NCBI RefSeq assembly: GCF_903970965.1
Contig: NZ_CAJCKW010000006.1
Coordinates: forward strand, 124,001-188,000
Reading direction: 5' to 3'
Length of the DNA: 64,000 bases
DNA from: Aureimonas sp. ME7
GTDB lineage: Bacteria > Pseudomonadota > Alphaproteobacteria > Rhizobiales > Rhizobiaceae
The position numbers and the translations under genes are program-made. Of the stretch, positions 8,743 through 20,850 are shown piece by piece. The stretch's first letter is position 1. The number at the start of each line of letters is the position of its first letter. Under the pieces are notes generated by a model, which searched no databases, had not been told where the DNA came from, and worked only from the letters and a program-made list of their open reading frames with translations.

Positions 8743-9699
8743 ATGAACGACACGCGGGAGCCGGATCCGACGATGGAAGGAAGCCAGACCGACAAGCGCT
8801 TCGAGGAAGCGCTGGAATGGTTCGTCCGGCTGCGCGAGGAGGACGCCGAGCCCGATCTGCGCGCCCGGTTCGAAACGTGGCGTCTCGCCGATCCTCGCAA
8901 CGAGGAAGCCTTCGCCAGGGCGCAGGCGCTGTGGGACGGGTTCGAGATCGCGCGGCCGAGCTTCCGGCGCCGCCGTCGAGGGCCCCGTCTCGACCGGCGC
9001 GGCGTCCTGACGCTCGGCGGCCTCCTGGCGCTGGGTGGCCCGGCGCTTTATTGGGCGAGCAGGCCCGGACGCTTCGCCGATTATCGGACCGACGTCGCGG
9101 AGCGTCGCAGCGTGACGCTCGCCGACGGAAGCGAGGTCGAACTGGCGAGCTATTCGGCCCTGTCGGTCGACTTCACCCCGACACAGCGGGGCCTGACGCT
9201 CCATCGCGGTCAGGCCTTCTTCCGCGTCGCTCCCGATGCGGACCGCCCCTTCGTCGTCGAAGCCGGGGCCGGACGGGTCCGTGCGCTCGGCACGGCCTTC
9301 GACCTGAAGCTCGTGGCGGGAAACACCACCGTCTCCGTCATGGAGCACGCGGTGGAAATCGCCGCCGCGAAGCATACCACCACGCTCGAGGCGGGCTGGC
9401 AGGCCAGCTACGGCACGGGCGGCATCGCCCCGCCGCAGCGCTTCGACGCGGGCGTCGCCGAGGCGTGGCGACGGGACCGGATCGTCTTCGAGGACGTCCC
9501 GCTTCGCCGCGTCCTGGCGGAACTGGAGCGCTACCGGCACGGGCCGATCCTGCTGATGGGCGCGAACGTCGGCGAGATTCCGGTCACCGCCGTGTTCGAC
9601 ACCCGCGACACCGACCAGGCGCTTCGAACCATCGAGCGCAACGTCCCCGTGCGGGTCGTGGCGGCCGCCGGCTTCGTCACCCTCGTCTATGCCCGATGA
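8743..9699 (+). CDS. FecR-family sigma regulator
   Basis: This 318-aa inner-membrane regulator has an N-terminal cytoplasmic DUF4880-type domain (about 20-65, EALEWFVRLREE...FETWRLADPRNEEAF) that would bind the sigma factor. One transmembrane segment follows near 85-105, directly after a twin arginine (LDRRGVLTLGGLLALGG). The periplasmic FecR domain (about 120-215, RSVTLADGSEVELASYSAL...VRALGTAFDLK) and the C-terminal part end in a short secretin/TonB-like fold. It receives the signal from the N-terminal extension of the receptor downstream. The twin arginine before the membrane segment suggests possible Tat-dependent insertion. Gaps of 55 and 130 bases on either side leave room for separate promoters. 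Confidence 0.9.
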   Translation: MNDTREPDPTMEGSQTDKRFEEALEWFVRLREEDAEPDLRARFETWRLADPRNEEAFARAQALWDGFEIARPSFRRRRRGPRLDRRGVLTLGGLLALGGPALYWASRPGRFADYRTDVAERRSVTLADGSEVELASYSALSVDFTPTQRGLTLHRGQAFFRVAPDADRPFVVEAGAGRVRALGTAFDLKLVAGNTTVSVMEHAVEIAAAKHTTTLEAGWQASYGTGGIAPPQRFDAGVAEAWRRDRIVFEDVPLRRVLAELERYRHGPILLMGANVGEIPVTAVFDTRDTDQALRTIERNVPVRVVAAAGFVTLVYAR

Positions 9700-9750
9700 A
9701 AAAAGTTCACGCCCCCGTTCATTAGCCGGGGCTTCCCGCGTGTCTGAAGA
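9697..9750 (+). promoter_or_regulatory. Candidate FecI-type promoter of the receptor gene
   Basis: A GAAAAAAGTTC element (9698-9708) overlaps the fecR stop codon. It is followed by a GC-rich stretch and CGTGTCTG at 9739-9746, about 85 bases before the receptor start. An A-rich -35-like element and a GTCT-type downstream element between a fecR-like gene and its receptor is typical of ECF-iron loci. The distance between the two elements is longer than in the E. coli fecA promoter, so the exact -10 is uncertain. Confidence 0.35.
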
Positions 9751-9829
9751 AACGAGGGCCTCCGGGGGGACGGCTCTCGTTCACCGAGGGACGCGGCCGA
9801 AACGGTCGCAAGGACACGAGAGTTCGACC

Positions 9830-12250
9830 ATGCGTATCGAGGGACAGGACAAGGGCGCCGCGACACGAAAGCGGGCAACGAGGGCCATGGTTCGCGGCCT
9901 GTTCGTGTCGAGCCTTCTCGCCGGCGCGGCGCTGCCGGGCGCGACCGCGACGCCCGCCTCGGCCGAGACGGGCCGCACCGCCTTCAACATTCCCGCCCAG
10001 TCCCTGTCCGGCGCGCTCCTGCGCTATTCGCAGGCGACCGGCGTCCAGCTCTTCTTCGGCGCCGACCTCGTGCGCGGTCGCAATTCGGGCGGCGCCAAGG
10101 GGCCGCTGACCCCGACCGCCGCGCTGACCCGCATCCTCGCCGGCTCGGGGCTCGCCTATCGCAACGAGGGCGGCACGATCGCGATCTACGACCCGGCCGC
10201 GATCACCGGCAGCATCGAGGCGACCGGCGGGACGGTGGTTCTCGACACGGTGACGGTGGAAGGCGAGGGCGACGGGGGCGCGGGCGTCAGCGGCTTCGTC
10301 GCGACGCGCTCCTCGGCCGGCACCAAGACGGGCGCCCCGCTGGTCGAAACGCCGCAGTCGATCTCCGTGGTGACGCGCAAGCAGATCGAAGCTCAGAACG
10401 CCCAGAGCGTCACCGAGATCCTGCGCTACGTCCCCGGCGTCACGGTCGAGACCTACGGCGTCGACCCGAAGGGCTACGACTGGGTCTTCATCCGCGGCTT
10501 CAACGCCCAGAGCACCAGCGACTACCGCGACGGGTTGCGCCAGATCGCGTCGAGCTACTCGTTCTTCCGCACCGAGCCCTACGATCTCGACCGCGTCGAG
10601 GTCCTGCGCGGGCCCTCGTCCAGCCTCTACGGCCAGTCCGATGCCGGCGGCATCATCAACCGCGTCACCAAGAAGCCGACCGCGACCCCGGTGCGCGAGG
10701 TGGAGGTGGAATACGGCTCCTTCGGCCGCGTGCAGGGCGCCTTCGACGTGGGAGGCCCGGCGAACGAGGACGCCTCGCTGCGCTACCGCCTCGTCGGCGT
10801 CGCGCGCGAGTCCAACACGCAGTACTCCTATGGCGGCGCGGATGTCGGCGACGACCGGCTCTTCCTCGCCCCGTCGATCGCCTATGTGCCGGACGCCGAC
10901 ACGAGCCTCCTGATCCAGGCCGACATCCTGCGCGACCGGTCCGGTGGCACCGTCCTCTACTACACGCCGACCGACACCTTGATCGGCGATCCCGACTTCA
11001 ACCAGTCGACGCAGGAACAGGCGACGATCGGCTACCAGTTCGAGCATCGCTTCAACGACACGTTCACCCTGCGCCAGAACCTGCGCTACGGCCATGTCGA
11101 CTTCGTGCTCGACAATCTCCTGATCGCCGGCTCCAACGCCGCCGGGCTGACGCGCGTGGCGCGCAACTTCGACGAGACGCTGGACGCCTTCACGGTGGAC
11201 AACCAGGGCCTTCTGAACTTCGAGACCGGCCGGGTCGGCCACGAGGTCCTGTTCGGGCTCGACTACGCCTATTCCGACGCCGACGTGAAGCGCTTCACGG
11301 GCGCGGCGCCCGGTCTCAACCCCTATGCGCCGGTCTACGGCGCCCCGATCCGCAATCCCTCGACCCCGCTCGTGCGCTACACGGAGGAAGCCAGCCAGCT
11401 CGGCCTCTACGGCCAGGACCAGGTCAAGCTCACCGATCGCCTGATCGCGACGCTCGGCGGGCGCTACGACTGGATCGACGTCACCACCGACAACGCGCTG
11501 ACACGCACCACGACAAAGCTCGAGGACGGCGCCTTCAGCGGCCGGGCGGGCCTGACCTATCTCCTGCCGCAGGGCTTTGCGCCCTATGTCAGCTATTCCG
11601 AGGCCTTTGTTCCCAATCTCGGCGTCTCGGCCCCGGCCAACGGATCGGAAACCTTCGATCCCTCGTCGAGCCGGCAGTGGGAAGGCGGCGTGAAATACGA
11701 GCCGACCGCCTTCACCGGCCTCTTCACCCTGGCGCTCTTCGACATCACCAAGACCAACGTCCTGACGACCGACCTCGCCAACCCGGGCTTCAGCGTCGCC
11801 ACGGGCGAGGTGCGCTCGCGCGGGCTGGAGCTGGAGGGCAAGGTGAATCTCGCCACCGGCTGGGACCTGACGGCCTCCTACAGCTACACCGACGCCGAGG
11901 TGACGCAGAGCAATTCCGGGAACGTGGGCAAGCGCCCGATCCTGGTGCCCGAGCATCAGGCCTCCGGCTGGCTGAACTACGAGTTCCAGGACGGCGCGCT
12001 GGCCGGTCTCGGCCTCGGCGGCGGCTTGCGCTATGTCGGCCCGTCCTACGGCAACGCCGCCAACACGCTGGAAGTCGAGGGGCGCACCCTGGTGGATGCC
12101 GGCGTCAGCTACACCTACGGCAACGTCAAGGCGCAGGTGAACGCCACCAACCTCTTCGACAAGCGCTACTTCACGACCTGCTCCTCCACCATCGACTGCT
12201 ACGAGGGAACGCGGCGCTCGGTGATCGCCCGCGTCAAGACGAGCTTCTGA
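9830..12250 (+). CDS. TonB-dependent siderophore receptor with signalling domain
   Basis: This 806-aa outer-membrane receptor starts at 9830 with a long signal peptide (about 1-45, ending TPASA). A secretin/TonB short N-terminal domain (about 50-105, FNIPAQSLSGALLRYSQATGVQLFF...) is the part that signals to FecR. The plug domain (about 145-260) has TPQSISVVTRKQIE, RYVPGVTVE and EVLRGPSSSLYGQSDAGGIINRVTKKP. The C-terminal beta-barrel ends with the terminal Phe (VIARVKTSF) needed for assembly. An in-frame ATG at 9689 lies inside fecR and is rejected. It belongs to the ferrichrome/ferrioxamine-like TonB-siderophore class. The ligand is unknown; with the downstream FhuD/FhuB-like genes a hydroxamate is a reasonable guess. 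Confidence 0.93.
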   Translation: MRIEGQDKGAATRKRATRAMVRGLFVSSLLAGAALPGATATPASAETGRTAFNIPAQSLSGALLRYSQATGVQLFFGADLVRGRNSGGAKGPLTPTAALTRILAGSGLAYRNEGGTIAIYDPAAITGSIEATGGTVVLDTVTVEGEGDGGAGVSGFVATRSSAGTKTGAPLVETPQSISVVTRKQIEAQNAQSVTEILRYVPGVTVETYGVDPKGYDWVFIRGFNAQSTSDYRDGLRQIASSYSFFRTEPYDLDRVEVLRGPSSSLYGQSDAGGIINRVTKKPTATPVREVEVEYGSFGRVQGAFDVGGPANEDASLRYRLVGVARESNTQYSYGGADVGDDRLFLAPSIAYVPDADTSLLIQADILRDRSGGTVLYYTPTDTLIGDPDFNQSTQEQATIGYQFEHRFNDTFTLRQNLRYGHVDFVLDNLLIAGSNAAGLTRVARNFDETLDAFTVDNQGLLNFETGRVGHEVLFGLDYAYSDADVKRFTGAAPGLNPYAPVYGAPIRNPSTPLVRYTEEASQLGLYGQDQVKLTDRLIATLGGRYDWIDVTTDNALTRTTTKLEDGAFSGRAGLTYLLPQGFAPYVSYSEAFVPNLGVSAPANGSETFDPSSSRQWEGGVKYEPTAFTGLFTLALFDITKTNVLTTDLANPGFSVATGEVRSRGLELEGKVNLATGWDLTASYSYTDAEVTQSNSGNVGKRPILVPEHQASGWLNYEFQDGALAGLGLGGGLRYVGPSYGNAANTLEVEGRTLVDAGVSYTYGNVKAQVNATNLFDKRYFTTCSSTIDCYEGTRRSVIARVKTSF

Positions 12251-12294
12251 GGACGCGCGTCGTGGGCGATCCCCCGCCCCCGGCGCGGGCCGGC

Positions 12295-13182
12295 ATGACG
12301 GCGGCGACGCGCCGCCGCGTGCTCCAGGCGCTGGCGGGCAGCCTCCTCCTGCCGGCGAGGGGCGCAGCGGCCATGCCCCGGCCGCTGCGCGTCGCGGCGA
12401 TCGACTGGGCGGGCGCCGAGGCGATGCTCGCGCTGGGCGTGGTGCCGGTCGGCCTGTCCGACACGCGCTACTACCGCGAGCGCATGGGCCGCTCCCTCTT
12501 GCCCGAAGACGTCGCCGACATCGGGCCGTTCTGGGAGGTCAACATGGAGCTCCTGGCCGAACTGCGGCCCGACGTGATCCTGGCGAGCCCGTCCAACATC
12601 GTGGCGATGCCCACGCTGCCCGAAGTGGCGCACATCCATGCCGTGCCGGACGCCGTGCCGCCCGAGGGGCGATACGCGCTGGGCGCGGCGATCCTGCGCG
12701 ACGTCGCCGCCCTCCTGTCGCGCGAGGCGCGGGCCGAAACCCTCCTGGCCGAAGCCGAGCGGGCGATGGGCGCTGCGGCCGAAGCGCTGGCGCGGGGGCC
12801 GGAGCGTCCCGTGTTCGTGCTCCTGCCCAACGGCAACGGGCGGAGCGTCATCGTCTACGGCCGCAACAGCCTGCCCGACGCGGTTCTCCGGCGGATCGGC
12901 GTTCGCAACGCGTTCAACGGGCGCACCAACGCGGCGGGCGTCGCCACGATCGGGGTGGAGCGGCTCCTCGCCGAGCCCGATGCCCTGATCCTGATGATCG
13001 ACATTCCCTCCGCGCGTCGGCGCATCGACGCCGCCATCGCCGGAAGCGCCCTGTGGCAGGCGCTGGAGCCGGTGCGCGCCGGGCGCATGGCGTTTCTGCC
13101 CGCCTTCTATCCGTTCGGCGGCGTTCCCTCGGCGCTCGGGCTGGCGGGCGAACTCCGCGCACGCCTGTCGAACCCCGCATGA
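12295..13182 (+). CDS. Iron-siderophore ABC transporter periplasmic binding protein
   Basis: This 295-aa FhuD/FecB-like protein has a twin-arginine-type leader (TRRRVLQALAGSLLLPARGAAA). The class III binding-protein fold follows, with lobe one LRVAAIDWAGAEAMLALGVVPVG and ELRPDVILAS. A connecting helix and lobe two (LLPNGNGRSVIVYGRNSL...IGVRNAFNG) come next. It lies 44 bases after the receptor stop and overlaps the permease start by 4 bases (ATGA). It would pass the ferri-siderophore from the receptor to the permease. A GTG a few codons upstream is an alternative start; ATG 12295 is preferred because it puts the Arg motif near the N-terminus. Confidence 0.88.
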   Translation: MTAATRRRVLQALAGSLLLPARGAAAMPRPLRVAAIDWAGAEAMLALGVVPVGLSDTRYYRERMGRSLLPEDVADIGPFWEVNMELLAELRPDVILASPSNIVAMPTLPEVAHIHAVPDAVPPEGRYALGAAILRDVAALLSREARAETLLAEAERAMGAAAEALARGPERPVFVLLPNGNGRSVIVYGRNSLPDAVLRRIGVRNAFNGRTNAAGVATIGVERLLAEPDALILMIDIPSARRRIDAAIAGSALWQALEPVRAGRMAFLPAFYPFGGVPSALGLAGELRARLSNPA

Positions 13183-15170
13183 TCGGCACGAGACGAAGCG
13201 GGTTCCTGCCTGCGCGGCACGTGTTCGCGCTCCTCGTGCTGGCCGCGACGCTGTTCCTCGCCTGGCGAGGGCTGGACGCTCTCCTGCCCACGGCCCGCTG
13301 GCTCCAGGCCGTTCAGGCGCCCGACCCGGCCGATCCGCAAACGCTCGTCTTTCTCCAGAGCGCGATGCCGCGCCTCGCCATGAGCCTTCTGGCCGGCGCC
13401 GCGCTCGGGCTGGCGGGGTCGGTCTTCCAGCACCTGTTTAGCAATCCGCTCGCCGATCCCTCGCTCCTGGGAGCGGCCTCGGGCGCGCAGCTCGCCTTGA
13501 CGCTGGCGCTTCTCTACGCGCCGGGCGCTCTCGCCTTCGGGCCGGAGCCCGTCGCCTGGGCCGGCGCGGCGCTGGCGCTCGGCCTCGTGTTCGCCTCGGC
13601 GTTCCGGCAAGGCTTCAGCCCAAGCGGGCTCGTGCTCGCCGGTCTGGTGATCAACCTGTATCTCGGCGCGCTCGCCAGCCTTCTCGTCCTCTTCAACCAC
13701 GACTTCCTCAGCGAACTGTTTCTCTGGCAGGCCGGCTCGCTCGCCCAGAGCGGCTGGTCCGGCCCCTTCGCGGTCGCCTCGCGCCTCCTGCCGTTCGCGG
13801 TGCTGATGGCCCTTCTGCGCCGCCCTCTACGCCTTCTCGAACTCGGCGACGCGTCGTCCCGCGCCCTCGGGCTCGGCGTCGGGTGGACGCGCGGTCTCCT
13901 TCTGGCGGGCGCCACGCTTCTCGTCGCTTCCGTGATCGGGTCCACCGGGCTCATCGGCTTCGTCGGCCTCGCCGCGCCGCATATCTCGAGGGCGTTGCGG
14001 GCGGGGCGACGGGCCTTCGATCCATGGGGCGCGGCGATCACGGGGGCGATCCTCCTCGCTTTCGTCGATCAGGTGACGCGCGAGCTATCCGCCTTCGCCG
14101 GCGAGATCCCGACCGGCTCCGTCGTCGCCGTCATGGGCGGGCCGCTTCTTCTCGCCCTCCTGTCGCGCATGCCGCGTTCGCCCGCTCCCCCGCCCCTGCC
14201 TACGAGCACGTATCCGCGTCCCGCGTACGCCGGGGCGCTCGGCTGGCTGGCCCTCGCCCTCCTCCTCGTCACCGCGCTGAGCCTTTCTGCCGCGCGGATG
14301 CGCGGGGGCTGGTCGTTCGACCCGTGGGCGCTGGAGGGGCTGATCCTGCAGGGGCGCGCCTTGCGGATCGCGGCCGCCGCGGGGGCGGGGGCGGGTCTCG
14401 CCCTGTCCGGCTTCCTGCTCCAGCGCATCACGGGCAATCCGCTCGCGAGCCCCGAGCTTCTGGGCGTCAGCCAGGGGGCGGGGCTCGGTCTCGTCCTGGC
14501 GATGCTGCTGGTTCCCGGTGCGGGCACCGGAGCCATGCTTCTGTTCACTTCGGCCGGCGGCCTCGCCGCCCTCCTCCTCGTCCTCGGCGCGAGCCGGCGC
14601 GGGGCGCGCGAGCCGAACCTGCCGCTTCTGGCGGGGGTTGCGGTCGGCGGCATCGCGTCGGGCGTGACGAGCTTCTTTCTCGCCAGCGGCGATCCGCGCG
14701 TGGCGATCCTCCTGTCGTGGTTTTCGGGCTCGATCGGGCGGGTCCAGGGCGCGAGCGGATCGGCGCTGGTCTGCATCGTCCTCCTCGGTCTCGGCCTTTC
14801 GGCCGCCATGCACCGCAACCTCGACACGCTGCTGATCGGACGCGATGCCGCCCGCCCGATCGGCTTTCCGCACGGCGCCGTTTCGTTCGCCGGCCTCGCG
14901 CTGGCCGCCGTCCTGACGGCCGCCGCCACCATCACGGTCGGCCCGTTGAGCTTCGTCGGCCTGATGGCGCCCCACCTCGTTCGCCGCGCCGGATTCCGAA
15001 CGGCAGGCCAGGCCGTTCCGGCCGCGGCCCTCGCGGGCGCGATCCTCCTCGTTGCCGCCGACTGGATCGGGCGCAACATCGCCTACCCCTGGCCGATCTC
15101 CGCCGGGCTCCTGGTCACGTTCCTGGCCGGCCCCTTGATCCTGGCAGGGAAACTCGGCCGAAACCGCTGA
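13179..15170 (+). CDS. Fused FecCD-type iron-siderophore permease (FhuB-like)
   Basis: This 663-aa inner-membrane permease carries two tandem FecCD/BtuC halves (about 1-330 and 345-663). Each half has the AGAALGLAGSVFQ or AGAGAGLALSGFLLQ entry motif, NPLADPSLLG or NPLASPELLG, and the EAA-like STGLIGFVGLAAPHISR or VGPLSFVGLMAPHLVRR loop. Length and duplication match FhuB, which serves as both subunits of the channel. Its start overlaps the binding-protein stop (ATGA). No FecE/FhuC-type ATPase gene follows; a possible terminator and then a YcaO gene come next, so the ATPase must come from elsewhere. Confidence 0.92.
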   Translation: MIGTRRSGFLPARHVFALLVLAATLFLAWRGLDALLPTARWLQAVQAPDPADPQTLVFLQSAMPRLAMSLLAGAALGLAGSVFQHLFSNPLADPSLLGAASGAQLALTLALLYAPGALAFGPEPVAWAGAALALGLVFASAFRQGFSPSGLVLAGLVINLYLGALASLLVLFNHDFLSELFLWQAGSLAQSGWSGPFAVASRLLPFAVLMALLRRPLRLLELGDASSRALGLGVGWTRGLLLAGATLLVASVIGSTGLIGFVGLAAPHISRALRAGRRAFDPWGAAITGAILLAFVDQVTRELSAFAGEIPTGSVVAVMGGPLLLALLSRMPRSPAPPPLPTSTYPRPAYAGALGWLALALLLVTALSLSAARMRGGWSFDPWALEGLILQGRALRIAAAAGAGAGLALSGFLLQRITGNPLASPELLGVSQGAGLGLVLAMLLVPGAGTGAMLLFTSAGGLAALLLVLGASRRGAREPNLPLLAGVAVGGIASGVTSFFLASGDPRVAILLSWFSGSIGRVQGASGSALVCIVLLGLGLSAAMHRNLDTLLIGRDAARPIGFPHGAVSFAGLALAAVLTAAATITVGPLSFVGLMAPHLVRRAGFRTAGQAVPAAALAGAILLVAADWIGRNIAYPWPISAGLLVTFLAGPLILAGKLGRNR

Positions 15171-15192
15171 CCCGAGGGCCGGGAGCCGCGCC

Positions 15193-15228
15193 AGAGGCCA
15201 TCCCGCATGTGAGGAAACGGCCTCTTTT
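15193..15228 (+). terminator. Candidate terminator after the siderophore operon
   Basis: AGAGGCC (15193-15199) pairs perfectly with GGCCTCT (15219-15225), with a 19-nt loop, and the stem runs into TTTT (15225-15228). It lies 22 bases after the permease stop. The loop is long and the T-tract short, so termination may be partial. If real, it separates the iron operon from the YcaO locus. Confidence 0.4.
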
Positions 15229-15320
15229 CCAAGGCGGGGCGCAACCTCGCGCGCGAACGTGATATCGGGCTTCATTCCCGCATTCCGGCTGGTGCCGGCT
15301 TTGCCCGAAGGAGACACGGC

Positions 15321-16571
15321 ATGGCGCCTGGGCGCACGACCGGCCAGGAGAACGTCATCGGCTCCCGCAGGGTGGACATCGCCGCCCTTCCCCGCTTCGG
15401 TCGCATCTGCGACCCGGCCGAGACGGTGCGGCGCGTGCGCCCGCATATGGCAGCCCTCGGCATCACCCGGCTCGCCCGGCAGACGGGGCTGGACCGGATC
15501 GGCATCCCGGTCTGGGCGGCGATCCGGCCCAACTCGCTGTCGCTGGCGGTCAACCAGGGCAAGGGGGCGAACGACGACGCGGCGATGGCCTCCGCCCTCA
15601 TGGAAGCCGCCGAATACGCGATCGCCGAACGCCCGAACGCGCCGGCCCGTATCGCCACGAAGGCCGAACTCCTGGCGGAGGGCGCCCCCGTCTTCGAGCC
15701 TCGGCGACAGATGGCACCCGGCGCCCTCGTGCCGGAGAATCGCGAGCTGTCCTGGCTTTCCGGGCGCAGCCTCTTTCACGGCGGGGAGGTGTGGGTGCCC
15801 ACCGAAGCCGTCCGGCTCGACCATACGACCGAGGTCTTCGGCGGGCTCGCCCGCTCGTCCAACGGCCTGGCGTCGGGAAACAACGAGGACGAGGCGGTGC
15901 TCCACGCCCTGTGCGAACTCGTGGAACGCGACGCGCAGACGTTCCAGCGGTTCCGACCGGGACGAAGCGCGTCCCTCGTTCGGATCGATCCCGCCTCGTT
16001 CGGGAGCGCCCTCGTCGACGACCTGTGCGCACGCCTGCGCGCGGCCGACTTCCACCTCGATCTTTTCGACATCACGACGGAGATCGGCATTCCCGTCGTC
16101 CATGCCGTGGTCCGCGACGCGCGAATCCCCGTCCACGGGCAGCTCGACCTGGCGGCCGGGTCGGGCTGCCATCCCTTCGTGCCGCATGCGGCCGTCCGCG
16201 CCATCACGGAAGCCGTCCAGACGCGGATCACCAACATTTCCGGGGCTCGCGACGACATCGATCCCGCCGAATACGCCGAGCCGCTTCGACCCGGCCTCCG
16301 AGCCTATGTCGAGGCCGCGCATACCCAAGCCACCGGCGAGCCGCCCCGATCCATCGCATCGCCAGAGGTGACGCCTGCCCGGTTCCTGGACATCGTCCGG
16401 CAGCGGTTGCTGGATGCGGGGATCGACGAGGCGATCGCCGTCACGCTGGGAAGCGAAGCGCACGAGATCGTCGTCGTGCGCGCCTTCGCCCCGCGTCTCG
16501 AGGATCGTCCCGTCAACCGGTTCTGGACGCCCGGCCCCCGGATGGCCAAGGCGATGCTGCGGCTATGGTGA
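15321..16571 (+). CDS. YcaO-domain protein of the TfuA-partnered type
   Basis: This 416-aa protein belongs to the YcaO superfamily, whose members use ATP to activate backbone amides of peptides to make azolines, thioamides or amidines. Expected ATP/Mg-binding segments are present: SALMEAAEYAIAER (about 92-105), SNGLASGNNEDEA with N181, and HALCELVERD with E199, E202 and R203. The third segment is HAAVRAITEAVQTR. It has no fused E1-like or ocin-ThiF leader-binding domain. It starts after GAAGGAGACACGGC and overlaps tfuA-like by 7 bases. YcaO plus TfuA pairs are known to make thioamides in peptides such as thioviridamide, and trifolitoxin loci carry tfuA. A precursor-like ORF lies at 17285. Confidence 0.9.
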   Translation: MAPGRTTGQENVIGSRRVDIAALPRFGRICDPAETVRRVRPHMAALGITRLARQTGLDRIGIPVWAAIRPNSLSLAVNQGKGANDDAAMASALMEAAEYAIAERPNAPARIATKAELLAEGAPVFEPRRQMAPGALVPENRELSWLSGRSLFHGGEVWVPTEAVRLDHTTEVFGGLARSSNGLASGNNEDEAVLHALCELVERDAQTFQRFRPGRSASLVRIDPASFGSALVDDLCARLRAADFHLDLFDITTEIGIPVVHAVVRDARIPVHGQLDLAAGSGCHPFVPHAAVRAITEAVQTRITNISGARDDIDPAEYAEPLRPGLRAYVEAAHTQATGEPPRSIASPEVTPARFLDIVRQRLLDAGIDEAIAVTLGSEAHEIVVVRAFAPRLEDRPVNRFWTPGPRMAKAMLRLW

Positions 16572-17284
16572 GGGTTCTCTTCGCGGGGCCGAGCCTTCCC
16601 GGCGTCCGGCTCGACGCCGCCGGGATCGACATCCGCCCCCCCGCCGCCCAGGGCGACCTGCAGGCCTGCGTTCTCGAGGGCGCCAACGTCGTCGGCCTCG
16701 TGGACGGCGTGTTCGAGACCGTTGCGGCCACCTGGCACAAGGAAATCCTGTTCGCGCTGTCGCAAGGGGTCACCGTTCTTGGCGCTGCCTCCATGGGCGC
16801 GCTACGGGCGGCCGAATGCCATGCCTTCGGAATGATCCCGATCGGGGAGATCGCGCAGCGCTACGTTTCGGGCGCCCTGGACGACGATGCCGCAGTCGCC
16901 CAGCTCCACGGTCCGGCCGAGCTCGGCTACCTCAGGGTGACGGAGGCGCTGGTGGACTGCGAAGCGGCCATCGCCGCGCTCGGAGCGTCAAGCCGCATCG
17001 ACGCGCGGGAAGCATGCCAGCTCGTGGACGCCGCCCGCGGCCTGTTCTTCAAGCAACGGACCTGGCATGCGGTCGTCGATCGAGCCGGGCTGGAAGGAGC
17101 CAGAGGGCGCGAACTCCTCGCTCTCCTTCCAGGCAAGGAGCGGCAGAAGCAGCGCGACGCCCGGCGTCTGGTGGAAGCCATGCAGGCGCTTCCCGATGCG
17201 AGAACCCTGCCCGATCCGGGATGGCACCCGGCCCGAACGCCGGCCTGGCTTCGAACCTTGAACCGCCGGGAGGCAGCGCCCTAG
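16565..17284 (+). CDS. TfuA-like protein, YcaO partner
   Basis: This 239-aa protein has the TfuA core: VVGLVDGVFETVAATWHKEILFAL, then GVTVLGAASMGALRAAECHAFGM and IPIGEIAQRYVSGALDDDAAVAQLHGP. It was named from the trifolitoxin locus. Work on thioamide systems shows that TfuA acts with YcaO, probably in sulfur delivery or activation of the amide. The ATG at 16565 overlaps the YcaO stop, so the two are co-translated. The C-terminal half is helical and basic. The gene ends with TAG at 17282-17284, and a small ORF begins at the very next base. The family assignment is firm; the role here is inferred from the pairing. Confidence 0.88.
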   Translation: MVRVLFAGPSLPGVRLDAAGIDIRPPAAQGDLQACVLEGANVVGLVDGVFETVAATWHKEILFALSQGVTVLGAASMGALRAAECHAFGMIPIGEIAQRYVSGALDDDAAVAQLHGPAELGYLRVTEALVDCEAAIAALGASSRIDAREACQLVDAARGLFFKQRTWHAVVDRAGLEGARGRELLALLPGKERQKQRDARRLVEAMQALPDARTLPDPGWHPARTPAWLRTLNRREAAP

Positions 17285-17407
17285 ATGAACACCACGGAGG
17301 GTGAAAGCCGGCGCGACAAGATGGCCAGGCCGGCAACGCTCGCCGTGTTGGGGCGTTCATGCCCGATCTCGGCGATGACGATCGCCTCGCGAACTTGCTA
17401 CACTTGA
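17285..17407 (+). CDS. Candidate 40-aa RiPP precursor peptide
   Basis: This ORF of 40 codons begins at the base right after the tfuA-like stop. GGGAGG at 17268-17273 is a possible ribosome site 11 bases upstream. The first half is charged (MNTTEGESRRDKMARP), like a leader. The end, residues 24-40, reads RSCPISAMTIASRTCYT, with two Cys, three Ser and three Thr of the kind YcaO enzymes modify. About 80% of third codon positions are G or C, as expected for coding DNA here but only modestly above background. Trifolitoxin precursor TfxA is of similar size. I infer a precursor from size, position and composition; I recognise no homologue. Chance ORFs of this size do occur in GC-rich DNA. Confidence 0.4.
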   Translation: MNTTEGESRRDKMARPATLAVLGRSCPISAMTIASRTCYT

Positions 17408-17439
17408 GGCGACGCAAACCTTTGGTATCCCGCGCGCGC

Positions 17440-19401
17440 ATGGCCGACGAACGATACAGACTGGCTCTTCTGGGACCTCCGTCCCTGCGCGATCCCCATG
17501 GCGAACTCGTCGGCTTTCCCGCCAAGGCCTTCGCCTTGGCCGCTCTTCTGGATGCACGTGCCGACGGGCGCGCCGCCCGCCCCGTCCTGGCGGGCCTTCT
17601 CTACGAGGATGTCGGACAAACGGCCGCCATGGTCAACCTGCGCCAGCTGCTCAGCCGGGTCCAGTCCCGACAGAACCAGCTGGGGATCGAGCTCTTCGCC
17701 TTCTCGAAGGACGAGGTTCGGCTCGTGGCCGAGACGGGCGGTGTCGCGCTCGACGTCGCCATGTTGCGAGCGGTCGAGACGCTGCCCGATCGCCAGGCGC
17801 TGGACGCGTTCCGCGAAGGATACGGCGGCGATCTTCTCGAGGGCTTCGAAGGCAAGGGCGAAGCGTTCGATGCCTGGCTCGCCGGGCAGCGCGCGGAGGT
17901 TCGGCGGCGCTATCTCGATTTCCTGCGCTCGGGCGCGGCCAACCTCGGCGGCCGGGAAGGCGAACGGGCGCTGCGGCAGATCCTTCGGTTCGATGCCTAC
18001 TCGGAGGATGTCTGGCGCGACCTTCTCAAGCTGGTGCGCGAAACCGTCGACCTCGAGGCGGCCGAGCGCGTCTTCCAGGAAATGACGGAGCGCTTCGAAG
18101 CCGATCTTGGCATCGCCCCCGGTCCCGAAACCGGAAGGCTGATGGAGATCCTGCGCGGTCGGGGCAGCGTCCGGGGCGCCGAGGCTTCCTATGTCAGGCC
18201 CGCCGAAGCCCTGCTTCGCGGCCCCGCACCCGACGGCGGGAGCGCCGCCACGCCGGTTCCGCGCCTGTGCATCCTGATGCCGCCCGCCGAGCCCGGGCTC
18301 GACGAGCACGCCGGTCTCGTCGGCTCTTTGATCGAGGACATCACGCTCGGCCTTTGCCGGCTCCGATCGCTCGCCGTGATCGCGCCCCACACCGCGTGGC
18401 AGCTGGCGGGGGACGGCGCGGCGCCGCTCGGCCAGTTGCAGCTCGACTACGTGGTCGAGACGAGCCTCCGATCGTCGTCGACCGGCCCCCGGATCTATGT
18501 GAAGCTCGTTCGGATGTCGGACCGGGTGATCATCTCGGGCGACGTCTACGAACTGTCGGACAGCTATCTCGGGCATCACGACCGGCTGACCAAGATGATC
18601 GTCCAGGCGCTGGCCGACGGGCTGGAGCGCGCGGAGGGCGAGCGGTTCCTGACCTCCGCCCGGCCCGACGCCTATCAATGGCTGCTGCAGGGGCGCCAGC
18701 ATAGCCGCGTCCTCGATCTTCCCCACGTGCGGCGCGCCCGCAAGGCCTTCGGCCAGGCCGTGGAATGCGATCCCTCCTTCGTTCCCGGCCTGTCCGGAAA
18801 GGCGAGGACGCTGATTCTGGAATGGCTGCTTCTCGCCCAGACGGATCGCAATCTCCTGATCCAGGCGCAATCCATCGCCCAGCACGCGATCACGCTCGAT
18901 CCGTTCAGCGGGGAAGCGCTGCGCGACTACGCCGGATCGACGCTTCTCCTCGGGGGGATGGACGAGGCGAAGGAAGGGTTCTCGAAGGCCGAACGCCTGA
19001 CACCGCACCATGCGGACATCCTGGCCGATCATGCCAACGCGCTGACGCACTGCTCGGAGATGGAACTGGCGCTCGGCAAGATCGAGCGGGCGATCGGGCT
19101 GAACCCGATCCCGCCCGACGACTATCTCTGGACCGCGGGAGGGGCGCTGTTCTTTCTCAACGACTTCGAGGGCGCCCTTTCCTATCTGAAACGGATGAAG
19201 CGGCAGGAGCCCGCCTTCCGCCTGACCGCCGCGTGTCTCGCCATGCAGGGGCAAAGGCGGGAAGCGGCCTATTTCGTGGCGCGCGCTCTTGAGGACCAGC
19301 CGAACTTCCTCATACAAGATTGGGTTGCGACGATTCCTTTGCGTTCGAAGCAACACATCCAGCAATACACCCATGCCTTGGCCCAGGCCGGGTTTCGTTG
19401 A
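17440..19401 (+). CDS. BTAD/TPR transcriptional regulator (SARP-like)
   Basis: This large cytoplasmic regulator is about 653 aa from the ATG at 17440. It opens with a winged-helix-like segment (YRLALLGPPSLRD...FPAKAFALAALLD). A bacterial transcriptional activation domain follows at about 100-240 (FDAYSEDVWRDLLKLVRE, AERVFQEMTERFEADLGIAPGPETGRLM). A TolB-like/adenylate-cyclase-associated region (about 265-390) and C-terminal TPR units (about 410-640) complete it. The start is uncertain. ATG 17440 gives the usual N-terminus but no Shine-Dalgarno; an in-frame TTG at 17422 lies 12 bases after GAGG, which overlaps the stop of the 40-aa ORF; ATG 17359 would overlap that ORF. It likely controls the YcaO-TfuA locus. 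No DNA target is visible. Confidence 0.82.
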   Translation: MADERYRLALLGPPSLRDPHGELVGFPAKAFALAALLDARADGRAARPVLAGLLYEDVGQTAAMVNLRQLLSRVQSRQNQLGIELFAFSKDEVRLVAETGGVALDVAMLRAVETLPDRQALDAFREGYGGDLLEGFEGKGEAFDAWLAGQRAEVRRRYLDFLRSGAANLGGREGERALRQILRFDAYSEDVWRDLLKLVRETVDLEAAERVFQEMTERFEADLGIAPGPETGRLMEILRGRGSVRGAEASYVRPAEALLRGPAPDGGSAATPVPRLCILMPPAEPGLDEHAGLVGSLIEDITLGLCRLRSLAVIAPHTAWQLAGDGAAPLGQLQLDYVVETSLRSSSTGPRIYVKLVRMSDRVIISGDVYELSDSYLGHHDRLTKMIVQALADGLERAEGERFLTSARPDAYQWLLQGRQHSRVLDLPHVRRARKAFGQAVECDPSFVPGLSGKARTLILEWLLLAQTDRNLLIQAQSIAQHAITLDPFSGEALRDYAGSTLLLGGMDEAKEGFSKAERLTPHHADILADHANALTHCSEMELALGKIERAIGLNPIPPDDYLWTAGGALFFLNDFEGALSYLKRMKRQEPAFRLTAACLAMQGQRREAAYFVARALEDQPNFLIQDWVATIPLRSKQHIQQYTHALAQAGFR

Positions 19402-19418
19402 GAAAAGGGAGACAGGAC

Positions 19419-19649
19419 ATGCCGATCTTCATCGTGGGCGCCAAGAGCGACACCGAAGAGCTCTGGATGGTCGACACCGATGCCGGCACCGTCCGAAAGG
19501 TCGACGCGGATGCCGGCGCGGCGGAGGGCTCGGACGCTCCCACGCTCCAGAGCCTTCGCCGGAACGGCTACACCGTGATCCGCGACGTCGACGTGGCCGT
19601 TCTGGTCGGCCAGTCCGACCAGCCCGTCAGCCGCCAGTTCACCGACTGA
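19419..19649 (+). CDS. 76-aa protein of unknown function downstream of the BTAD regulator
   Basis: This small acidic protein starts at 19419, after AAAAGGGAGACAGGAC, 17 bases past the regulator stop, so the two are probably co-transcribed. It begins MPIFIVGAKSDTEELWMVDT, has a central Asp/Ala-rich stretch (VDADAGAAEGSDA) and ends VAVLVGQSDQPVSRQFTD. It has no signal peptide, membrane segment or cysteine. I do not recognise a family. It could be a second substrate or an accessory protein of the YcaO-TfuA pair, or unrelated to it. The good ribosome site and codon usage make it a real gene in my view. Confidence 0.6.
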   Translation: MPIFIVGAKSDTEELWMVDTDAGTVRKVDADAGAAEGSDAPTLQSLRRNGYTVIRDVDVAVLVGQSDQPVSRQFTD

Positions 19650-19669
19650 GGGAGCGCTGCGAGACGGCG

Positions 19670-19687
19670 CCGCCCCGCGAGGGGCGG
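19670..19687. terminator. GC-rich hairpin between convergent operons
   Basis: A perfect 7-bp stem, CCGCCCC-GCGA-GGGGCGG, lies between the 76-aa ORF (rightward) and the ABC ATPase gene (leftward). It has no T-tract on either side. Its position between convergent genes suggests a shared transcription end point. Confidence 0.4.
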
Positions 19688-19773
19688 GCGGCCTTCGGTC
19701 GTGATAGCGACCCGTGGATCCCTGCCGGCACCCGTGTCGGCAGGACGACAAGCCCGACCGGCCCTTGGCGTCC

Positions 19774-20850
19774 TCAGTCGGCGGCCAGCGGCACCGTGTG
19801 GTTCGCGGACCAGGACAGGGTCACGGGGTCTCCCGGCGAACGCAGGCGCGCATCCCGGTTCTGGGCGAAGACCTTGAGGACGAGACCGCCCGCGGCCTCC
19901 ACGTCGTAGATGATCGCCGTTCCCGAATAGATCGACGCGCGGATCACGGCGGGAAGCCGGTTCACGCCCGGCCCACCCTCGTCGCCACCCAAGCCGGAAG
20001 CGTCCCCGATATCGATCTTCTCCGGCCGAACGGCGAGCGTCACGCGCTGGCCCGCCGGCGGCAGGGCGAGCGCGCTGACGATCCGCTCGCCGCTTGGCAG
20101 CACCGCCCCGTCCCCTTCCACCGTGCCGTCCAGAAAGTTCGTGTCGCCCAGGAACTCGGCGGCGAAGCGGTTCGCCGGCCGCTCGTAGACCTCGGTCGGC
20201 GCGCCGATCTGCACGATCCGGCCGCGATCCAGGATCGCGACCTTATCCGACAGGGTCAGCGCCTCCTCCTGGTCGTGGGTGACGAAGATCGTGGTCAGCC
20301 CGCTTTCGCGCTGGATGCGCACGAGTTCGACCTGCATCTCCTGGCGCAGGCGCCGGTCGAGGGCGGAGAGCGGCTCGTCCAGCAGGAGGACGCTCGGCCG
20401 CGTGACGATGGCGCGTGCCAGCGCGACGCGCTGCTGCTGTCCGCCCGAAAGCTGCTTGGGCTTGCGTTCGCCAAACCCCGGCAAGCGGACCATCTCCAGC
20501 GCGCGATCGACCTCCTGGCGCGCCTGCGCGCCCCGGATGCCGCGCCGCGCGAGGCCGAACGCCACGTTGTCGGCGACGCTCATATGCGGAAACAGCGCGT
20601 AGGACTGGAACACCATCCCGATGTTGCGCGCCCACACCGGAACGTTCGTCACGTCGCGGCCGCCGATCGTCACCTTGCCGCGATCGGGAGCGACGAAGCC
20701 GGCGATGATGCGCAGGAGCGTCGTCTTTCCCGACCCGGAGGGGCCGAGAAGGCTGGTGAAGGAGCCTTGTGTGAAATGCGTCGAGATATCCGACAGGATA
20801 TCGGCCTTCCCGTAGCTTTTCGCGACGGCGGATACGTCAACGGCGGTCAC
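19774..20850 (-). CDS. Polyamine-type ABC transporter ATP-binding protein (PotA-like)
   Basis: This 358-aa ABC ATPase powers the importer encoded upstream of it on the same strand. Walker A is GPSGSGKTTLLRI (about 36-48), the Q-loop is VFQSYALFPHM, the signature is LSGGQQQRVALARA, Walker B is VLLLDEPLSALD and the switch is VTHDQEEAL. A C-terminal TOBE domain (about 280-350) follows. It is the last gene of a four-gene transporter set and overlaps the permease gene by 14 bases. The family (PotA/FbpC/UgpC-like) covers spermidine, putrescine, iron and sulfate importers. The substrate here is better judged from the binding protein and the nic neighbourhood. Confidence 0.9.
   Translation of the reverse strand: MTAVDVSAVAKSYGKADILSDISTHFTQGSFTSLLGPSGSGKTTLLRIIAGFVAPDRGKVTIGGRDVTNVPVWARNIGMVFQSYALFPHMSVADNVAFGLARRGIRGAQARQEVDRALEMVRLPGFGERKPKQLSGGQQQRVALARAIVTRPSVLLLDEPLSALDRRLRQEMQVELVRIQRESGLTTIFVTHDQEEALTLSDKVAILDRGRIVQIGAPTEVYERPANRFAAEFLGDTNFLDGTVEGDGAVLPSGERIVSALALPPAGQRVTLAVRPEKIDIGDASGLGGDEGGPGVNRLPAVIRASIYSGTAIIYDVEAAGGLVLKVFAQNRDARLRSPGDPVTLSWSANHTVPLAAD

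Follow-up and report, generated by a model that had tools for sequence, protein, structure and literature searches.

A YcaO-TfuA locus of Aureimonas sp. ME7 points to a family of candidate RiPP precursors paired with a SARP-TPR regulator

Results

The stretch of DNA analysed here, hereafter the window, covers 64,000 nucleotides of Aureimonas sp. ME7 and carries a ycaO gene (15321..16571, +) directly adjacent to a tfuA gene (16565..17284, +), the arrangement expected of YcaO-TfuA RiPPs, a known class. The pair had been proposed in an earlier note on this DNA, and both genes are real: the YcaO frame matches PF02624 at E 2.5e-60 and the TfuA frame PF07812 at E 2.2e-37 in Pfam. The start of tfuA is best read as the ATG at 16565, which overlaps the stop of ycaO. 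YcaO is predicted to activate backbone amides in an ATP-dependent manner, with TfuA as its predicted sulfide-delivering partner.

Among NCBIfam models, YcaO passes the generic YcaO-type kinase domain TIGR00702 (176.5, cut-off 75.65). Its top score, 203.4 bits, is to TIGR03266, the YcaO of McrA-glycine thioamidation, below the cut-off of 365, and it reaches 113.7 bits against the azoline-type SagD model, under the cut-off of 219.25. These relative scores place the protein nearer to thioamidating than to azoline-forming YcaOs, with no equivalog cut-off reached. Its best solved structure is MJ1094 (6pe3, E 2.4e-29), which we take to be a YcaO with a role in thioamidation. TfuA scores 141.7 bits against NF033432, below the cut-off of 235.2, and matches the solved TfuA-domain protein 6xp8 at E 1.1e-22; its SMGALRA motif, H55-K56 and K192 (query numbering) are each at least 93% conserved across 46 TfuA sequences. 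The genome also holds two matches above cut-off to the sulfur-carrier family PF02597 (ThiS), a family that presumably takes in MoaD as well, and at least one of the two may be MoaD.

Directly behind tfuA, the earlier note had singled out a 40-codon open reading frame (17285..17407, +; translation MNTTEGESRRDKMARPATLAVLGRSCPISAMTIASRTCYT) as a new RiPP precursor. Its description was accurate: the frame begins one base after the tfuA stop (17284), has the 40 residues quoted, and is preceded by a possible ribosome site, GGGAGG, ending 11 nt before the ATG. It lies inside the 155 bp that separate tfuA from the gene that follows, which we start at ATG 17440. Conservation of this short frame behind tfuA, which the note had made a test of its proposal, was not seen in 47 stretches around related TfuA genes (L031-L077): with tblastn at E 1, the sole match (E 0.88, L068) is on the opposite strand, before YcaO. 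The nearest relative, from the same genus (G001; TfuA 66% identical), has three forward frames behind tfuA, none of which resembles it. Against 200 related genomes, the top non-self match among those listed has E 0.007 and none is credible; at least 151 of 201 genomes, its own included, give some match at E 1, which is the chance level.

The properties of the frame itself are also those of a chance frame. When an ATG was simulated at the local base composition, at least 40 codons stayed open in 35% of cases. The three codon positions of the frame have GC contents of 0.45/0.65/0.80, compared with 0.70-0.78/0.45-0.57/0.81-0.91 in five neighbouring genes; GC1 is thus lower than GC2, opposite to the neighbours, a profile unlike coding sequence. 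Some frame of 25-90 codons begins near the tfuA stop in 17 of the 47 stretches, a count that includes the window and one locus entered twice (L038/L090), and only that of the window looks like the 17285 frame. Having no relative behind tfuA at the 47 loci and no credible one among the matches listed from 200 genomes, being absent from the same-genus locus, and showing GC1 below GC2 and a length expected by chance, it was rejected as a precursor; it is very probably not a gene, and we judge it a chance frame in the gap between tfuA and the regulator gene, outside the system. Of the earlier observation, therefore, YcaO, TfuA and the position and translation of the frame stand, and the frame itself is no better than chance.

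The gene that follows (17440..19401, +) encodes a SARP-like regulator with a BTAD domain (PF03704, 25 bits, cut-off 22.1 in Pfam) followed by tetratricopeptide repeats (TPR), seen as matches among solved structures. Only 17 bases behind it, and about 2 kb downstream of the 17285 frame, lies a candidate RiPP precursor gene (19419..19649, +) encoding 76 aa (MPIFIVGAKSDTEELWMVDTDAGTV...IRDVDVAVLVGQSDQPVSRQFTD), with AAGGGAG upstream. In the six-frame window, a profile of 47 other family members retrieves it at E 5.7e-15, with 0.015 for the next match; in the whole genome, an 18-member profile does so at E 1.4e-13, with 0.59 for the next. The window and G001 copies were both left out of the two profiles. 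It is 59% identical to its same-genus homologue. For the protein, queried from two codons upstream of the ATG, Pfam gives no match at E 0.001 and NCBIfam only 13.8 bits to the ELWxxDGT repeat model (cut-off 65); for the relatives L048 and L042, Pfam likewise gives none at E 0.01.

A conserved leader and a separable core can be delineated in this linked gene, by sequence only. The putative leader, residues 1-65 (19419..19613, +), is conserved in the family profile A1, and the predicted core SDQPVSRQFTD, residues 66-76 (19614..19646, +), is present in a single copy. The protein ends in ...VIRDVDVAVLVGQSDQPVSRQFTD; by eye, this tail can be aligned both to the unit that relatives such as L057 repeat (RSDPSERAFSFDG) and to ESEGPVSRQFS of the same-genus homologue. 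A low-confidence structural model (mean pLDDT 63.7) has a beta-rich leader part, with strands at 3-7, 14-19, 24-29 and 52-54 and a helix at 43-48, and residues 55-76 have no regular structure.

The family comprises 48 distinct members here, window included; a Met start was required, and L033, a frame without Met at its start, was left out. Members share a single leader, MAxxVVIGxxGxxxLWxVDxxAGTV...KGVDxAVA, followed by a tail. In 11 of the 48 the tail consists of 3-8 near-identical units behind the one leader (residue 48 on; 6-mers with one mismatch allowed), a copy number of three that none of 2400 shuffled peptides reached. Eight copies occur in L140 (DTRSEPAAHILYGA) and L040 (SDAASHHYFPNRG), six in L139 (DTRSDAASHIFYGVDRAVAA) and L123 (of GGLFERSE type), four in L049, L057 (second ORF), L048, L124 and L129, and three in L051 and L054. 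Two copies are less telling: shuffling produces them in 0-3% of cases for seven two-copy peptides and in 3-36% for eleven others, and the two-copy match of the window precursor falls within its leader. In L139 and L049, the end of the leader also recurs, by eye, within the repeat unit as a GVDRAVA- or GGDxAVA-like copy, a hint that this segment may aid recognition.

Two core types are visible by eye, S-[DE]-x-x-S-[RH], to which the window belongs, and [SAG]-G-x-[FLYM]-[DE]. A core motif is present in 45 of 48 tails against a shuffled mean of 22; the pattern was chosen post hoc and is not evidence. SG or GG dipeptides occur in 36 of 48 tails (shuffled mean 28, maximum 36) and are weakly enriched at most. 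From residue 49 onward, the tails are not Cys-rich (Cys in 2/48), and Ser is present in 46/48.

The usual gene order is regulator - precursor - YcaO - TfuA, and the window is rearranged to YcaO - TfuA - regulator - precursor. With distances taken from the end of the open frame to the end of the BLAST alignment, 39 of the 48 precursors are followed by YcaO on their own strand within 250 bp, and one more within 700 bp. Three have another arrangement (the window, L038 and L136, of which L136 nevertheless touches YcaO), and five have no YcaO in the stretch examined, one of these (L095) being at a contig end. The remaining four are distinct precursor-regulator pairs in genomes with TfuA elsewhere, for which modification in trans is possible: L091/L114 (G049), L101/L115 (G029) and L102/L116 (G023), each with 14 kb examined, and L121 (G509), with about 3 kb. 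Separately, G065 has a precursor-YcaO locus without a detected TfuA (L113) and, on another contig, a TfuA without a detected YcaO (L045).

A regulator match stands beside the precursor on the same strand in all 48 members; at L038 and L138 it covers no more than 62-70 residues. At L038 (8142-8327, G001) only the last 62 regulator residues are recognisable behind the precursor, with about 1 kb more of the contig examined; this regulator looks shortened or strongly diverged. The G001 precursor is moreover convergent to tfuA.

Precursor and TfuA co-occur. By profile search of 397 genomes of the order, the precursor is found in 33, all 33 of which have TfuA, present in 62 of 397 overall (TfuA called at E 1e-10; Fisher p 2.4e-31, which ignores kinship and overstates independence, several sampled genomes being closely related). 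Counted by genus, the figures are 13/142 for the precursor and 32/142 for TfuA; 29 of the 33 precursor-bearing genomes had contributed no row to the profile. Among 201 relatives, with TfuA called at E 1e-3, it is present in 21 of 22 precursor-bearing genomes against 44 of 201 overall, a comparison that is partly circular because the loci behind profile A1 had themselves been located by their TfuA genes. The exception, G047, has a fragmentary precursor match (E 0.008) in a 1473-codon frame and no TfuA; in G412 the TfuA partner has an internal stop.

The family is under purifying selection. Ka is lower than Ks for every listed precursor pair with a finite Ks, and in many close pairs nearly all differences are synonymous (L127 and L128: 28 synonymous and 0 nonsynonymous changes). 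With L048 as query, a relative is encoded in 59 of 72,556 plasmid records, mainly of Rhizobium (31), Sinorhizobium (10), Ensifer (10) and Neorhizobium (4); across the 40 of these 59 matches that are listed, the annotated genes are hypothetical proteins, with a few entries also for the neighbouring YcaO.

Further frames were noticed at related loci. A second, unrelated precursor-like type is present near YcaO-TfuA at 10 of the 10 loci looked at (L053:5762-6331, L058:5197-5820, L062:9822-10466, L063:4252-4914, L064:10039-10596, L065:2927-3775, L066:4280-4915, L067:9719-10282, L068:9994-10689, L071:9041-9571). It has a long N-terminal domain (MAETLL...ILLFGRVVEDL...FARIYGF...LFLVHGDG...WSYD...RLD) and a tail of tandem VSGAR, VSGAK, VSGSR, GSKV, AYSGGK or SGANL units in which a 4-mer recurs 4-10 times; of three scanned with Pfam, only L071 scored above cut-off, as a pentapeptide repeat. 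The Ser-Gly core of this precursor-like type is similar to the second of the two core types in the window family. A different ORF of 47-50 aa (e.g. MKANATIKAAPAACPIHLSAEAREAIGSCPVIPRDNGMGSVVHAMKFR) lies between the BTAD gene and YcaO in L072, L073 (same genus) and L061. It takes the place of the precursor and is possibly a third precursor type; its L072 form has no NCBIfam match at E 0.1. About 2.4 kb upstream of tfuA, L070 has a small ORF, MTKSTATTAIETPSNVGGRIAPKAVTPAQVGGRISATAVTPAQVGGRIR, with three VGGRI units.

The remaining neighbours of the window pair are of other kinds. Just upstream of ycaO, 8743-15170 encodes a FecR, a TonB-dependent receptor with an STN domain, a periplasmic binding protein and a double FecCD permease; this is an ordinary iron-uptake operon and was set aside as unlinked. 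At E 1e-3 over the 47 loci, most of which span about 5-8 kb on each side and some less, the receptor, binding protein and FecCD gave one match, to FecCD at the edge of L036 (E 5e-7). The ATPase gene at 19774-20850 belongs to an ABC-ATPase-type group found at 12 loci in scattered places. A promoter and terminator scan of 15100-19800 returned nothing above shuffled expectation.

Discussion

The earlier note read the locus as one in which YcaO and TfuA act on a ribosomal peptide encoded nearby, and this is very likely correct, with a conserved small precursor candidate at the locus. The peptide that it chose is very probably the wrong one; judged from sequence, the precursor is probably the 19419-19649 product. 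In our estimate the locus quite probably encodes a thioamidated-RiPP pathway in which YcaO-TfuA would modify the core of this precursor, and the predicted product is a short linear thioamidated peptide with one core here, about SDQPVSRQFTD.

From the gene content, the family and its conservation, the tandem cores of relatives and the co-occurrence with TfuA, we infer how substrate relation, thioamide chemistry and site, release and role may fit together. The locus would act as two gene pairs, SARP-TPR regulator with precursor and ycaO with tfuA. Once translated, the precursor would be bound by YcaO-TfuA at its leader, which ends in ...GVDxAVA..., and YcaO with ATP would activate a backbone amide in the C-terminal core. 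According to biochemistry cited in the available text of PMC13185837, TfuA frees sulfide from ThiS-COSH by a Ser-Lys pair and YcaO makes the thioamide via an O-phosphorylated intermediate; the change expected from this work is thus a backbone exchange of O to S. Here TfuA would bring sulfide from a ThiS-type thiocarboxylate, and one or more backbone amides at or beside the conserved Ser region would become thioamides (+16 Da). A dedicated protease is not among the genes identified at the locus, so host peptidases may free the short linear peptide, as proposed for thiovarsolin.

Two observations favour a thioamide pathway in particular: YcaO scores best against a thioamidation model, and its own genome holds two ThiS-family matches. 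Several count against our preferred reading, namely that both enzymes stay under the thioamidation equivalog cut-offs, that the gene order is rearranged and the core single in the window, that the precursor is convergent and the regulator reduced to 62 recognisable residues in the same-genus genome, and that G047 and G412 depart from the co-occurrence. The precursors without a YcaO nearby also weigh against it, since they make the regulator, and not the enzymes, the tightest link of the precursor.

That link is what would be expected if the 76-aa protein were a partner of the SARP-TPR protein, with an accessory or regulatory function, and not a substrate of YcaO-TfuA, a reading that the same-strand regulator match at all 48 members, four of them lacking YcaO in the stretch examined, supports. 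We nevertheless consider it unlikely, because tandem tails behind one leader, as in 11 of 48 members, are expected of a multi-core RiPP precursor and not of a regulatory protein, and because the precursor is confined to TfuA-bearing genomes (33/33 of the order sample). It is slightly less likely still that YcaO forms azolines or azoles on Ser, Thr or Cys of the core. YcaO enzymes in general can cyclodehydrate, and nearly all tails (46/48) offer a Ser; against this, the partner is TfuA, the YcaO scores 203.4 bits for McrA thioamidation versus 113.7 for SagD (below both cut-offs, 365 and 219.25), and just 2 of 48 tails contain Cys. Most improbable by far is that the 40-codon frame is the precursor after all, perhaps as a lineage-specific one. 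Its place behind tfuA, the plausible GGGAGG upstream and the Cys/Ser/Thr in its tail invited that idea, which is opposed by its lack of a relative at 47 loci and of a credible one among the matches listed from 200 genomes, its absence from the same-genus locus, its GC1 below GC2, its length within chance and the conserved precursor candidate already present in the cluster.

The thioamidated-RiPP pathway proposed here is best compared with that of thiovarsolin (Streptomyces varsoviensis; VarY, VarT and VarA), as described in the consulted parts of PMC6511847. Both have a YcaO-TfuA pair, VarA has a short repeated core like those of 11 of our 48 members, and the thiovarsolin cluster has no specific protease, as none is among the genes identified at the window locus. 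Unlike the thiovarsolin core, APR/GPR, no member of the present family contains APR (0/48). Thiovarsolin also involves a dehydrogenation enzyme, VarO, whereas no VarO-like enzyme is found among the genes Pfam-scanned at 8.7-21.6 kb of the window. A SARP-TPR pairing is not mentioned in those parts of the paper. Both window enzymes have their best NCBIfam scores to the archaeal McrA-glycine thioamidation YcaO/TfuA (TIGR03266, NF033432), without reaching the equivalog cut-offs; that archaeal system acts on a large protein, whereas here the substrate would be a small precursor. Trifolitoxin of Rhizobium, in which tfuA was first implicated (PMC4603692, in part), is likewise a rhizobial TfuA-linked peptide, and no precursor relation is claimed.

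A global mining survey that takes in TfuA-related clusters from Rhizobium and other Proteobacteria reported more than 500 Rhizobium clusters and 797 precursor families (PMC8120280, main text in part), and on that scale members of the window family were probably caught there in silico. The available portions of its main text describe neither such a leader nor repeated rhizobial cores, and the words 'BTAD', 'tetratricopeptide' and 'repeat' do not occur in the main text at all. A literature search, mostly at the level of listings, found no description of the leader family or of the regulator pairing; the family may have been listed previously.

The constant pairing with the regulator also invites a further idea. 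It is conceivable, if rather doubtful, that the SARP-TPR protein and the precursor form a signal-receptor pair, in which short thioamidated cores, released from precursors with one or several cores, would act as pheromones that resist proteases and are sensed by the TPR domain of the partner regulator; YcaO-TfuA would also serve additional pairs in trans. Peptide-sensing TPR regulators exist in Gram-positives, and such a pair, if real, would be a Gram-negative parallel to them.

As of the 2021 survey (PMC8120280, in the text available), the thioamidated YcaO-TfuA RiPPs then known were all actinobacterial and most clusters proteobacterial. Starting from the present locus, a defined precursor family could be traced within the order, in Rhizobium, Sinorhizobium, Neorhizobium and others. 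The predicted cores can be read from the sequence, with up to eight repeats in relatives, so that product masses can be predicted and the rule by which a proteobacterial YcaO-TfuA pair selects its substrate can be put to the test. Finally, the constant SARP-TPR pairing suggests where to seek the role of the peptide.
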